The notes beneath the pieces are model-generated. The model had not been told where the DNA came from and made no database searches. It was given only the letters and a program-made list of their open reading frames with translations. The position numbers and the translations under genes are program-made. A stretch of 64,000 nucleotides of DNA from an uncultured Peptostreptococcaceae bacterium (GTDB lineage Bacteria; Bacillota; Clostridia; Peptostreptococcales; Anaerovoracaceae). Shown here one piece after another: positions 28,836 to 33,013 of the stretch; position 1 is the first letter of the stretch; the number at the start of each line of letters is the position of its first letter. The stretch spans positions 1 through 64,000 of the forward strand of contig CATJIF010000074.1 in NCBI GenBank assembly GCA_949740445.1. The letters run 5' to 3'.

Positions 28836-28864
28836 ATCATAAGTCGAACGGATAACTCGTACAA
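28836..28864 (-). promoter_or_regulatory. Promoter of rmuC-phosphoesterase pair
   Basis: On the minus strand TTGTAC (28864-28859), 17 bases, TATGAT (28841-28836). The predicted start of transcription lies about 12 bases before the rmuC ribosome binding site. It sits in the 89-base gap shared with the divergent feoAB genes. Confidence 0.65.
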
Positions 28865-28906
28865 TTTATTATACCACACCTCCCGGTTTCACGAAAGGAG
28901 TTTCCC

Positions 28907-29188
28907 ATGTACTTATCCCAGGCCCGCAGGGGCGATGTTCTCGAAATCCTCCGCTTTCCGGACGGCAGCGCCGCACTGCAGGCCCGCCGCCTGGGACTGT
29001 CCGCAGGCGCGCAAGTCCGCTGTACCTTCGCCATCGCTGGCGGCCCGGTAGTCATATCCGCAGGCAGCCAGCAAATCGCTCTCGGGCGGCCGCTTGCGCG
29101 CAACATCAGCGTCCGCCGCGCCGGCCTTACCTGCTGGCATACAATACCTGCAGCCCGTTCCACTTCTACTTTGGGAGGCCTCCTATGA
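28907..29188 (+). CDS. feoA: FeoA family protein
   Basis: Small SH3-like partner of the FeoB ferrous iron transporter. It is 93 residues; the core is QARRGDVLEILRFPDG, LQARRLGLSAGAQVRC, GGPVVISAGSQQIALGRPLARNISV, the usual FeoA order of strands, with an extra ~20 C-terminal residues. AAAGGAG lies eight bases before the ATG. It ends in an ATGA overlap with feoB, so the two are translated together. It is thought to modulate FeoB activity from the cytosolic side (known for the family). Confidence 0.88.
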   Translation: MYLSQARRGDVLEILRFPDGSAALQARRLGLSAGAQVRCTFAIAGGPVVISAGSQQIALGRPLARNISVRRAGLTCWHTIPAARSTSTLGGLL

Positions 29189-30990
29189 ACACCGTATGTT
29201 CCGCGGTTTCCACTGCATCCGCTGCTGCCCCTGTTCGCTCTGCCGGTGCTGCTTGTCCCACCGATACTGTTTCTATCGTCGCTCTTGCCGGAAACCCCAA
29301 TGTAGGAAAATCCGTGGTGTTCCGCTGCCTGACCGGCCGCTATGCCGAGGTTTCCAATTATCCCGGAACCACCGTAGATATTGCGCGCGGCACCTGCGGC
29401 CCGCTTTTGCTCTGCGATACTCCCGGCGTCTTCGGCCTTTCGGACCTCAACGAGGAGGAAACCGTCGCCAGGCGCGCTCTGATGGACTGCGAGGCTGTCA
29501 TCAACGTAATCGACGGCACGACACTGCACCGCGATCTGTTTTTAACGCTCCAGCTGTGCGGCCTGCAAAAGCCGATGCTGGTCGTCGTCAATATGATGGA
29601 CTTAGTAGAAAAGGAACGCATCCAGCTGGATCTTCCCCGGCTTTCCGCTGCGCTGGGGCTGCCTGTCGTCGCCGTAGCTGCTGGCAGGGGAAGCGGAATC
29701 GACACCCTGCGCTCTGCCGTTTTGCAGCAAAAGTTCTGCCTGCCGCACCTGCATCCGCACATTTCCGGTACGCCCTCAGACGACAGCGAAGCTCTCGAAG
29801 CGCAGGCTCGGACCCTTGCCCGGCAGTGCAGCATTCCGCTGCCCTTCCGCCGCGCCTATATAAAATCGCCGGACAGGTATCTGCTCCATCCGCTGGGAGG
29901 TTTTCTGCTCTTCGCCTCGCTTCTGCTTTTCCTCTGGTTCTTTTTAGGACAATTCCTGTCGCAGACCGTCGTAGGCGTTACGCAGGGCGTTCTCATGGAC
30001 CAGCTGTGGTACGACGGTGTCTGCTCTCTTCTGCAGCCTCTGCTTAGCGCAGACAGCCTGGCCGGCTGCCTGCTCTACGGCGAATACGGCCTGCTGACGA
30101 TGGTTCCTTCTTATCTGCTCGGCCTTCTTCTGCCCCTAGTCGCCGGCTTTTACTTCGTGATGTCGCTTTTGGAGGACTCCGGCCTTCTGCCGCGGATGGC
30201 AGTGCTCTCCGACCGGCTGTTTTCACACTTTGGCTTAAACGGCAAAGCCGTTATTCCCATGCTGTCCGGTTTCGGCTGCGTTACCATGGCCCTGATTTCC
30301 ACCCGCATGCTGGGCTCGCGCAGAGAGCGCCTGATTGCGGCTCTGCTGCTTTGCACGGCCATCCCCTGCTCTGCGCAATGCTCGATTATCATGGCTGTCG
30401 CCGCTTCGCTGCCGCTGCGGCTGCTTCTCTTTTATCTGTGCGCGATTCTGCTTTTGTTTATTTTTACGGGCCTTCTGGCGAACGCCCTGCTTCCCGGCGA
30501 TTCCAGCCCGCTGTTTCTTTCGCTGCCGCCGCTTCGCTTTCCGCAGCTTTCCAACGTGCTGCACAAGACGCTTTTGAAATCCCGCAGCTTCCTTGCTGAT
30601 GCCGGGCCGCTGTTCTTAGCCGCCGGAGCCTTTATTTCGCTTCTCAACTACACCAGCGGCTTTTCCGTCCTCCACCGGTGGCTGCTGCCGCTGACCGACG
30701 GCATGCTCCACCTGCCGCCTCAGGCGGTAACGCTGCTTCTCATGTGCCTGATTAAGCGGGATCTGGGCGCCGCCTATCTGTTTTCGATGATCGCCCGCGG
30801 AATGCTGTCGCCTGTTCAGATTACCGTGTGCCTGATTACGACGACACTTTTCGTTCCCTGCTTCGCCTCGCTTGCCGTTTTGGCCAAAGAGCAGGGGGCT
30901 GCTGCCGCTGCTGCACTGTGGCTGTTCAGCCTGCTGCTGGCCTTTGCCGCGGGGAGCGCCGCTGCCGCGTTTTTGCCGCTGATTGCCTGA
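29185..30990 (+). CDS. feoB: Ferrous iron transporter FeoB
   Basis: GTP-dependent Fe(II) importer in the cytoplasmic membrane. It has 601 residues. The N-terminal G domain shows G1 GNPNVGKS (36-43), the G2 region SNYPGTTVDI, G3 DTPG and G4-like NMMD. The membrane part has two Gate-like repeats (GLLLPLVAGFYFVMSLLEDSGLLPRMAV with GFGC following, and LLLMCLIKRDLGAAY). It carries about 30 extra Ala/Ser/Val-rich residues before the G domain and lacks the long C-terminal tail of E. coli FeoB. The GKSVVF in place of GKTTLF fits a known anaerobe-type FeoB subgroup. The CGCGCG hairpin at 31021-31058 probably ends the transcript. Confidence 0.93.
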   Translation: MNTVCSAVSTASAAAPVRSAGAACPTDTVSIVALAGNPNVGKSVVFRCLTGRYAEVSNYPGTTVDIARGTCGPLLLCDTPGVFGLSDLNEEETVARRALMDCEAVINVIDGTTLHRDLFLTLQLCGLQKPMLVVVNMMDLVEKERIQLDLPRLSAALGLPVVAVAAGRGSGIDTLRSAVLQQKFCLPHLHPHISGTPSDDSEALEAQARTLARQCSIPLPFRRAYIKSPDRYLLHPLGGFLLFASLLLFLWFFLGQFLSQTVVGVTQGVLMDQLWYDGVCSLLQPLLSADSLAGCLLYGEYGLLTMVPSYLLGLLLPLVAGFYFVMSLLEDSGLLPRMAVLSDRLFSHFGLNGKAVIPMLSGFGCVTMALISTRMLGSRRERLIAALLLCTAIPCSAQCSIIMAVAASLPLRLLLFYLCAILLLFIFTGLLANALLPGDSSPLFLSLPPLRFPQLSNVLHKTLLKSRSFLADAGPLFLAAGAFISLLNYTSGFSVLHRWLLPLTDGMLHLPPQAVTLLLMCLIKRDLGAAYLFSMIARGMLSPVQITVCLITTTLFVPCFASLAVLAKEQGAAAAAALWLFSLLLAFAAGSAAAAFLPLIA

Positions 30991-31018
30991 AGCCTCCGCC
31001 ACGTAAAAAATACGCAAA

Positions 31019-31077
31019 AAAACGCGCGCGTGAATAATTAAACGCGCGCGCGATTTTTCGCGCGATTCCGCGCGATT
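31019..31077. repeat. CGCGCG-rich direct repeat, copy 1 (3-prime side of AlbA_2 gene)
   Basis: Identical to 32759-32817 in its first 12 bases and last 35 bases; only an 11-base middle differs. The last 35 bases (31043-31077) are built from CGCGCGATT-type units. The stop codon of the AlbA_2 gene (31076-31078) overlaps the repeat end. ACGCGCGCG at 31022-31030 can pair with CGCGCGCG at 31043-31050 to form a hairpin followed by T's on either strand, so this copy probably also acts as terminator for feoB and for the AlbA_2 gene. Confidence 0.85.
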
Positions 31078-32728
31078 ATGTTACAATGCTGTATTTCACC
31101 GCGCGTGTTCGCCCCTCTGCTTTTAATTCATTATCCAGTACCATTTTCTTCAAAAGCCTGTATGCCTGATCCTTTCCTATACTCAGCAATCGACATACAT
31201 CGTTTCTCGTTACTGTTCCTCCCTGCTTTGCAGCCAATGCCAGAATCAGCCTTCGATATATGATTTCATCGTTCTCCATTTGTCGCACATATCCAACAGT
31301 ATTATCCTGCGTTTTCGATGACTTTATGCTTAATGTATATGCGCGCACTTTTCCGCTGCTGACAGCTTTTAACAGACCGCTTTCCATTAACTTTTCCACA
31401 TTTGCTTCCGTTCGGCTTTCGCTGATATGAATGGCAGCTGCCAGTTCCGAAAGCGACATGCGACGCTGTTTCTGCAGTGCTGACAAAATGAGCAGGGAGT
31501 TGATGGGAAGGGAACGGCCCAAGCGCTCCTCTTCTTCTGAAATCATTTTTGCAAAGGCAATGTCAGCTTCTGCCCGCTGGATAAACAATTTTACATATGC
31601 CTTTGTGGATTCAGCATAATCCGGCAACGGTCTTCCATAGATGATTGAACCTTCAAAAATGCGGTCGATTCCTCTTCCTGTTTTCTCTGCCAGTCCAATC
31701 CGTTTCATGGCATCTGCAAGCGCCTGATTTCTGCCGTGAGGTTCTACTGTCAGCAGGTTATTTAAGTTCACACCTTCAATAAAACCACCGGGGCTGCTGA
31801 TCGTCAGCCCCTCATCTTCAATCGCGACTCTCACCTGCTGCAATACGGAATAATCCCGATGGCAAAAAGCATTCACCAGCCCTTCGCGAAATGCCGCTTC
31901 CGAAAACTCGGGAATAGGCACCCGGAATAAGCCGGATTCCATCTCCCGTTCCGGATTCCACGCTTTAAAGTAATTCTCAAATAACTCAAAGACGGCCAGC
32001 AGCGGCTTTGCCAACTGTTCGTTCATTCGGATTTTTGTGCCTTCAAGTACCTGAAAGCTGCATTTAGCCGTTGGCAGCAATGTCTCTATGCGTTCTTCCT
32101 TTCCAATCAGAAGCATGCCCGTAACCGTCGGCAGCAATTCACCGTTTTCTTCCTTTACAAAGCGAAGCGCTTTATCCAGTTCTTCATCGCTTATCTCTAT
32201 CAAGGATTTATCGCCGTTCCTTCTTTTTATAATATTCCTGAGCCGGACACGCTCATTCAAATCAAAATCCTCTGCAGAAGCTCCGCTCACCACCTGTGCA
32301 GAAAAATCCAACAGGCTGAGTTCAGAAAGGCGCGTATTGATTTCGTAGGGATACATTGGCACATTCTCCGGCGTACCGTCTACTTTTAATCTTCGCCTCA
32401 GAATTTTACCGTCAGAAGCGGCTACTATGGTTCTGCTCATGGGAATTTCAATTTTTAAAATATTCTTCCCCTCTTCGGCGATCAGCTCTGCCCTGACACC
32501 CACAGCTGGAACGGTTCTGTTGGCGATCAACGCTGCCACGCCTGTTTCATCCGCATGTTGAGCATGAATTCCGGTAATTTCACCATCATCCTCCACACCC
32601 AGATATAAAATACCGCCTTCTGTATTTGTTATTCCAACCACAGCGTCGATCAATTCTGCATCGCCAAGCCTTTTCCTGTCGCTTTTAAATTCGATCATAA
32701 GCGTTTCCCTTTCGGGTATTGTCCTCAT
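31076..32728 (-). CDS. AlbA_2/Schlafen-like putative DNA-binding and ATP-binding protein, repeat-flanked
   Basis: A 550-residue protein, larger than its relative at 21018-22337. The AlbA_2 domain covers ~1-130 (MIEFKSDRKRLGDAELIDAVVG, GGILYLGVEDDGEITGIH), the HATPase-like block ~270-370 (SEAAFREGLVNAFCHRDYS, EDEGLTISSPGGFIEGVN, LAEKTGRGIDRIFEG), then two winged-helix segments: ~405-460 (LSELAAAIHISESRTEANVEKL) and ~485-545 (TVTRNDVCRLLSIGKDQAYRLL). GGAGG before ATG 32728. The gene lies precisely between two near-identical CGCGCG repeats; the upstream copy overlaps its promoter, so autoregulation by its own winged helices is a strong inference. Enzymatic activity is unknown. Confidence 0.86.
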   Translation of the reverse strand: MRTIPERETLMIEFKSDRKRLGDAELIDAVVGITNTEGGILYLGVEDDGEITGIHAQHADETGVAALIANRTVPAVGVRAELIAEEGKNILKIEIPMSRTIVAASDGKILRRRLKVDGTPENVPMYPYEINTRLSELSLLDFSAQVVSGASAEDFDLNERVRLRNIIKRRNGDKSLIEISDEELDKALRFVKEENGELLPTVTGMLLIGKEERIETLLPTAKCSFQVLEGTKIRMNEQLAKPLLAVFELFENYFKAWNPEREMESGLFRVPIPEFSEAAFREGLVNAFCHRDYSVLQQVRVAIEDEGLTISSPGGFIEGVNLNNLLTVEPHGRNQALADAMKRIGLAEKTGRGIDRIFEGSIIYGRPLPDYAESTKAYVKLFIQRAEADIAFAKMISEEEERLGRSLPINSLLILSALQKQRRMSLSELAAAIHISESRTEANVEKLMESGLLKAVSSGKVRAYTLSIKSSKTQDNTVGYVRQMENDEIIYRRLILALAAKQGGTVTRNDVCRLLSIGKDQAYRLLKKMVLDNELKAEGRTRAVKYSIVT

Positions 32729-32748
32729 GCCGCACCTCCCTTGTCTGT

Positions 32749-32777
32749 AGTCTATCACAAAACGCGCGCGCGTTCAA
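32749..32777 (-). promoter_or_regulatory. Promoter of repeat-flanked AlbA_2 gene
   Basis: On the minus strand TTGAAC (32777-32772), 17 bases, TAGACT (32754-32749). The spacer is almost wholly GCGCGCGCG from the repeat at 32759-32817, so anything binding the repeat would compete with RNA polymerase. Confidence 0.7.
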
Positions 32778-32817
32778 TCATTCGCGCGCGCGATTTTTCG
32801 CGCGATTCCGCGCGATT
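32759..32817. repeat. CGCGCG-rich direct repeat, copy 2 (promoter side of AlbA_2 gene)
   Basis: Same orientation and same layout as 31019-31077, exactly 1740 bases away. On the minus strand it contains three head-to-tail AATCGCGCG units followed by GCGCGCGCG runs, an iteron- or operator-like array over and upstream of the promoter. Confidence 0.85.
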
Positions 32818-32939
32818 GCGACAAGGCAGCCAGCTTGCACATCCAACACACGCTGCACGTTTCTCGCACATTGTACATTCCTTGCACACACGTATCTCCT
32901 GCAAACCATGCGTCTTATGCGCAGCCTCTTTCTACGCAA

Positions 32940-32986
32940 AAAGCTCCTTGCCGTTTGCCGGAAACCCGGCAGCGGCAGGAGCTTTG
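32940..32986. terminator. Strong terminator after ABC-F gene
   Basis: AAGCTCCTTGCCG near 32941 pairs with CGGCAGGAGCTTT ending near 32985, with an inner GCCGG/CCGGC stem. T-runs follow on both strands (TTTTTGCG in the minus direction). It lies about 30 bases past the ABC-F stop. Confidence 0.85.
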
Positions 32987-33013
32987 TTTTTTCTTTGTTT
33001 ATCGGAAATCGCA

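Follow-up and report, generated by a model that had tools for sequence, protein, structure and literature searches.

A probable self-contained, horizontally moving one-gene Schlafen unit flanked by putative private operator arrays in an uncultured Peptostreptococcaceae bacterium

The 64,000-nt stretch of DNA analysed here (the window) contains a pair of CG-rich direct repeats enclosing a single Schlafen-type gene. The reading that we favour, with a probability of about 0.72, is that of a self-contained, horizontally moving one-gene unit whose repeats would be private binding arrays of the encoded protein and would mediate its autorepression. It builds on the repeats, the geometry of the promoter, the privacy of the sites, their covariation with the winged-helix (wHTH) domains of the protein and the unit-wise movement of the gene in relatives, all of which were computed from sequence.

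Results

The two copies of the 59-nt repeat lie at 31019-31077 (copy 1) and 32759-32817 (copy 2), spaced 1740 nt apart, and are 88% identical with 12 plus 35 identical bases, which reproduces the coordinates and identities given in a preliminary description of this DNA. No other exact direct repeat in the 64-kb window reaches the length of the 35-nt core, and first-order shuffling of the 3-kb region (300 rounds) gave at most 15 nt. As previously described, three AATCGCGCG units are present per copy on the coding (-) strand, and the copies enclose a single gene with its promoter at copy 2. Copy 2, the putative promoter operator array (- strand), combines its three AATCGCGCG half-sites with a CGCGCGCG..CGCGCGCG inverted repeat. 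It spans the -35 hexamer TTGAAC (32772-32777, - strand) and 13 of the 17 bases of the spacer; the -10 hexamer TAGACT assigned in our promoter reading (32749-32754, - strand) lies immediately outside. Based on the homolog alignment and the Shine-Dalgarno sequence GGGAGG (32735-32740, - strand), the true gene start is taken to be the ATG at 32728, the equivalent position being used by most homologs; the GTG at 32758 proposed in the open reading frame list was rejected as it would be placed upstream of the -10. Copy 1, the putative post-stop operator copy (- strand), overlaps the stop codon (31076-31078) and forms the terminator-like hairpin already noted in the preliminary description, a 10-bp CG stem with a 10-nt loop followed by a T7 tail (31015-31051, - strand).

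The gene (31076-32728, - strand; 46% GC compared to 54% for the window) encodes a protein of 550 amino acids to which Pfam, homologs and a structural model assign the order SLFN_AlbA_2, HATPase_c_4, wHTH1, wHTH2, all domains being encoded on the - strand. The SLFN_AlbA_2 domain (residues 8-112; 32393-32707) is supported by Pfam (52.7 bits, for a cutoff of 25.3) and by the homolog alignment, in which E8 is nearly invariant and E13, K15 and E46 are invariant. E8 and E13 display the E-x4-E spacing of the E205/E210 pair of rat SLFN13 (PMC5862951), and E46 and D47 are candidates for the third carboxylate. The HATPase_c_4 domain (residues 298-376; 31601-31837; 56.2 bits) was assigned by Pfam, wHTH1 (residues 405-477; 31298-31516) by Pfam, which scores HTH_24 at 32 bits in this protein, by the predicted structure and by structure comparison, and wHTH2 (residues 478-550; 31079-31297) by the predicted structure, the start of this last domain being less confident. 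An AlphaFold2 model built with 76 homologs (mean pLDDT 84) backs the two winged helices that had been proposed, wHTH2 being below wHTH1 in confidence. Foldseek and VIA-align agree on 3lmm, the sole PDB sequence relative at the default cutoff, as the nearest structure, followed by human SLFN N-domains and MarR-type winged helices. The fusion of AlbA_2, a minimal histidine-kinase-type ATPase and wHTH is that of the bacterial Schlafen (AlbA_2) type, and on these grounds the protein is probably a bacterial Schlafen-type protein, a putative RNase and anti-phage effector.

Eighty homolog loci were collected from public genomes, most of them metagenome-assembled, and organism labels and contig ends should therefore be considered with caution; about 75 homologs were compared, their flanks being inspected by eye and then measured. 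Nearly all of these ~75 homologs, the window gene included, share a sigma-70 promoter with a spacer of about 17 bp; half-sites specific to each locus lie within this spacer or next to it, and their sequence varies by subfamily at a conserved promoter position. Class A loci use TTTAACTCG/CGAGTTAAA, class B loci AAACGCACG/CGTGCGTTT and class C loci, to which the window belongs, CGCGCG types; further half-site types exist beyond these three. A 6-mer present at least four times in the 150 nt upstream of the gene was found at 79% of loci versus 3.4% of control windows. Likewise, promoter 8-mers (at least three shared) recur within 100 nt after the stop codon at 44% of loci, versus 0-7% for other 100-nt windows and 17% when promoters and 3' ends were swapped among loci. 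The post-stop copy is missing from about 56% of loci and is therefore not essential; where present, it is often inverted or palindromic relative to the promoter copy. Terminator-like copies amount to 5 of 32, and a function of the repeat as terminator only was rejected since all five detected terminators overlap copies, yet most copies are not terminator-like. The presence of a post-stop copy showed no clear dependence on the orientation of the downstream gene (13/26 convergent, 10/29 close codirectional).

The wHTH domains diverge faster than the remainder of the protein, with mean distances between homologs of 54% (wHTH1) and 53% (wHTH2) versus 35% elsewhere. With the rest of the protein partialled out, the distance between operators still correlates with that between wHTH1 domains and with that between wHTH2 domains (partial r of 0.32 and 0.38, respectively; 0 of 1000 permutations), a test from which shared ancestry is only partly removed; class-discriminating columns are found outside the wHTHs as well. 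In one pair of promoters, L017 lacks 43 nt between two half-sites compared to L012, including the -35 and the palindrome, and half-sites therefore recombine.

The preliminary description had called for a search for other genomic copies of the repeat. The window-type array was found in this genome only at the two ends of the Schlafen gene, and it was absent from 98 other relatives and from the other 296 of the 297 genomes of the order. The class B palindrome is similarly confined to the gene in the 13 class B carrier genomes with the sole exception of L131, and all six exact class A tandem matches among the 25 class A carriers map at the gene itself. Within the class, 2 of 391 genomes bear the exact class B palindrome; both are carriers of the gene, with four sites between them, one of which falls in a prophage-like region. 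The hypothesis of a wider regulon was thus rejected, as neither this genome nor the carriers show further sites except two solo sites. One of them (L131:1489-1530) is a perfect 42-bp palindrome of the post-stop type adjoining a paralogous gene remnant in a genome that also harbours a complete unit (L015), and is a candidate scar or second target. The other (L141:1501-1518) is a class B array just 5' of a phage regulator-like gene and near a small terminase gene, in a genome also bearing a Schlafen unit (L079/L143).

Near-identical units (91-97% identity in the gene, 81-94% in the promoter array) occur across different genomes. Three groups of these (L030/L032/L035/L039, L012/L015/L016 and L038/L040/L043) show no match beyond -130 and +40; homology stops at the array and at the stop codon, and units that are 91-96% identical thus lie in unrelated surroundings. 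Some flank is common to L048/L053, L064/L065 and L031/L034/L036. The last three units, ~98% identical, share upstream DNA and differ wholly in their post-stop DNA, which encodes AAA ATPase and SIR2-type genes, an arrangement that may be read from the sequence as an exchange of cargo at the 3' end. The gene is sporadic (4 of 99 relatives, this genome counted), and its best homologs (71-73%) are in other families, homologs from the same family reaching 51-58%. A single copy is present in 46 of 50 carriers and a second, diverged copy in the other four, which led us to reject a multi-copy transposon. Right ends are ragged, from 0 to +30 past the stop codon.

Flanking direct repeats of any kind, operator-type repeats counted, surround 17 of 66 units versus 7 of 174 other ORFs at the same loci. 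Operator-containing direct repeats of 70-136 nt are found at both ends of L058, L010 and L023. Several other units are surrounded by direct repeats of host sequence: L026 (146 bp, 97%), L072 (89 bp, 99%), L075 (67 bp, 97%), L019 (92 bp, 82%) and L073 (17 bp). The repeat around L026 (4725-4870 and 6837-6982) consists of a PAS-like gene segment duplicated on either side of the unit. Such long host-sequence repeats outside the operators point to a route of insertion other than operator recombination. Neither fixed ends nor a target duplication of constant length was found, the flanking repeats ranging from 17 to 146 nt. The strains with one repeat and no gene that the preliminary description had proposed to look for were not encountered either: 98 relatives, 297 genomes of the order and 29 Pseudobutyrivibrio genomes yielded no single-repeat empty site, the contigs of two genomes (G001, G002) stopping at or just past feoB. 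In a genome of the same genus (G004; L093 compared to window positions 28837-32990), the ABC-F gene is directly followed by rmuC, and feoAB and the Schlafen unit are both absent; the difference at this locus thus exceeds a one-gene insertion.

In the window, feoB and the Schlafen gene converge, and behind the latter lies the ABC-F gene. Five to seven of 20 downstream codirectional neighbours in homolog loci are of the defence type (SIR2-like, AbiEii-type AAA, Cas3, restriction-like helicase), and the remainder are housekeeping or unassigned. The want of a fixed partner among neighbours argues for a stand-alone unit; with defence genes making up about a third of the downstream neighbours, the protein may in some loci mainly regulate its neighbour. 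At L071, a second AlbA_2 gene is represented downstream (+95) by a convergent fragment.

Half-site arrays of two other subfamilies, classes A and B, are also carried by phages. The class B palindrome was found in seven viral contigs (six unrelated groups), every one of them with a third half-site, versus none for a composition-matched control palindrome. The class A tandem was found in 18 viral contigs (12 groups), 13 of which display at least three exact half-sites in one cluster, versus three contigs (two groups) with two half-sites each for a scrambled control. In all, these class A and B arrays span 18 unrelated groups, form one cluster per contig and are mostly intergenic, next to genes named by eye such as terminase-small-subunit-like, scaffold-like, endolysin and integrase genes. 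The Schlafen gene is encoded at none of the phage array loci (L144-L150, L153-L170). Neither the arrays nor the window repeat had a match among cultured phages in a BLAST search limited by low-complexity filtering. The whole viral collection holds only two relatives of the gene, both distant, which makes it improbable that the phage arrays simply remained after phages lost the gene. A relative with 40% identity (L152:6001-7656) lies on a viral contig within a BREX-like operon, between a gene for a 1503-aa ATPase-like protein and PglZ/BrxL-like genes; judged by eye from size and order, these neighbours are brxC/pglZ/brxL-like.

Discussion

The sites over the gene's own promoter at a conserved position and their covariation with the DNA-binding domains strongly support, at the level of sequence, a putative autorepressor with a private operator. 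In the mechanism that we propose, wHTH1 and wHTH2 would bind copy 2 over the -35 and the spacer, thereby repressing (rather than activating) the gene's own promoter and keeping down the level of an effector that could be toxic. The same protein would have its second array in copy 1, which here would also act as an intrinsic terminator and may stabilize repression by bridging both ends. Array and gene would be transferred together, a newcomer thereby bringing its own regulator-operator pair and needing no host factor, and the window copy itself may have arrived as such a mobile unit. The preliminary description had offered two readings of the repeats. The first, operators conferring autoregulation, is favoured by the conserved promoter position, the wHTH covariation and the absence of sites elsewhere in the genome. 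The second, ends of a movable or excisable one-gene cassette, survives in part: array and gene move as a unit between contexts, but recombination at the repeats themselves is less probable, with 56% of loci devoid of a second copy, no empty site in the genome sets searched and long host-sequence direct repeats outside the operators of several units.

That recombination, or a recombinase, would remove the gene and leave one repeat behind nevertheless has points in its favour, in that units move as such between genomes, a gene-less palindrome of the post-stop type adjoins the remnant of a gene in one carrier (L131), the gene-less phage arrays are compatible with scars, L017 has lost 43 nt between half-sites and three units bear operator-containing direct repeats at both ends. 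Given the lack of single-repeat empty sites in the three genome sets searched, the missing second copy in more than half of the units, the frequent inverted or palindromic arrangement of the copies and the lack of an accompanying recombinase, we consider excision through the repeats improbable. A transposable element generating long variable target duplications, as known for some restriction-modification genes (PMC3874152), with the operator copies being incidental, would account for the host-sequence repeats around L026, L072, L075, L019 and L073 and for the excess of flanking direct repeats around units, in which operator-type repeats are included. The ragged right ends, the absence of a DNA transposition domain and the presence of one copy per genome, which indicates no proliferation, argue against it, and the window repeat is operator rather than host sequence; we regard this explanation as rather unlikely.

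The wHTH domains and the SIR2, Cas3, AbiEii-type AAA or restriction-like genes downstream of some homologs could alternatively be suggestive of an ordinary transcriptional regulator of neighbours, be it of feoB, the ABC-F gene or a defence operon. We attach little probability to this possibility: near-identical units have unrelated, mostly housekeeping neighbours, the sites are found only at the Schlafen gene itself and the window gene is convergent with feoB with the ABC-F gene behind. Finally, the CG repeats might lack a protein partner and be low-complexity sequence arisen by chance or a structural feature such as Z-DNA or a terminator, as purines and pyrimidines alternate in the operators of classes B and C, for which a Z-DNA form is conceivable, and copy 1 makes a good terminator. 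Class A arrays (TTTAACTCG), however, are not alternating and yet occupy the same promoter position, and together with the privacy of the sites and the wHTH covariation this makes a chance origin very improbable. A Z-DNA-binding role of the protein was likewise rejected, wHTH1 matching Zalpha (Z 11.9) no better than the MarR/TtgV wHTHs and class A not being alternating.

If the protein is an autorepressor, the DNA of phages bearing the same half-site arrays might, as it replicates, draw the repressor away from its own promoter and so induce the Schlafen effector. That the operators are phage-sensing devices acting by titration or, conversely, decoys or host-controlled switches serving the phage is an unlikely but testable extension that would link host gene and phage through a private, fast-diverging DNA code. 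More generally, an odd CG-rich repeat has led to what may be a family-wide rule, whereby one-gene Schlafen units seem to carry their own regulator-operator code, private per genome and diversifying along with the protein. Dozens of natural regulator-operator pairs would thereby be available for reading wHTH specificity. The rule also hints at how a probable toxic defence RNase may stay silent once it has entered another host, and it offers a link, open to testing, with phages bearing arrays without the gene.

Comparison with known systems places the protein close to 3lmm (DIP2311 from Corynebacterium diphtheriae), an uncharacterized crystal structure that aligns over residues 1-476 (Foldseek E 7e-30; VIA Z 29.0, 421 aligned), albeit with an identity of ~20% and an overall rmsd of 14 A, indicating that the domain arrangement differs. 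With the N-domains of SLFN13 and SLFN14, it shares the AlbA_2 fold and, as regards rat SLFN13, the E-x4-E pair (PMC5862951); the match to the third carboxylate (E46 or D47) is uncertain and the wHTH pair is absent from the vertebrate proteins. As a small, self-contained, mobile entity that would regulate itself without the host, the unit resembles restriction-modification and toxin-antitoxin units (PMC3874152), from which it differs in consisting of one protein with no methyltransferase or antitoxin partner; the host-sequence repeats around some homologous units recall the long variable target duplications reported for restriction-modification units. The preliminary statement that no described system has this build was too strong as far as the protein is concerned. 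According to the part of PMC12839542 available to us, which cites a 2025 preprint by Taboada et al. for the bacterial Schlafen effector, the combination of a Schlafen RNase, a minimal histidine kinase and a wHTH is a described defence effector, an auxiliary effector of BREX found in at least 1017 taxa. Proteins of this kind are therefore known. The literature searched appears to hold no account of a mobile solo Schlafen gene with a private operator code at its two ends, nor of solo phage arrays, and that same part of PMC12839542 makes no mention of operator arrays or single-gene mobility for the BREX effector type. The window protein is like the BREX auxiliary effectors of that source in its AlbA_2/Schlafen, HATPase-type, wHTH order, and some of its homologs, L152 among them, likewise lie next to defence genes. 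Unlike those effectors, its gene stands alone, encodes two wHTHs and has putative private operator arrays at both ends.
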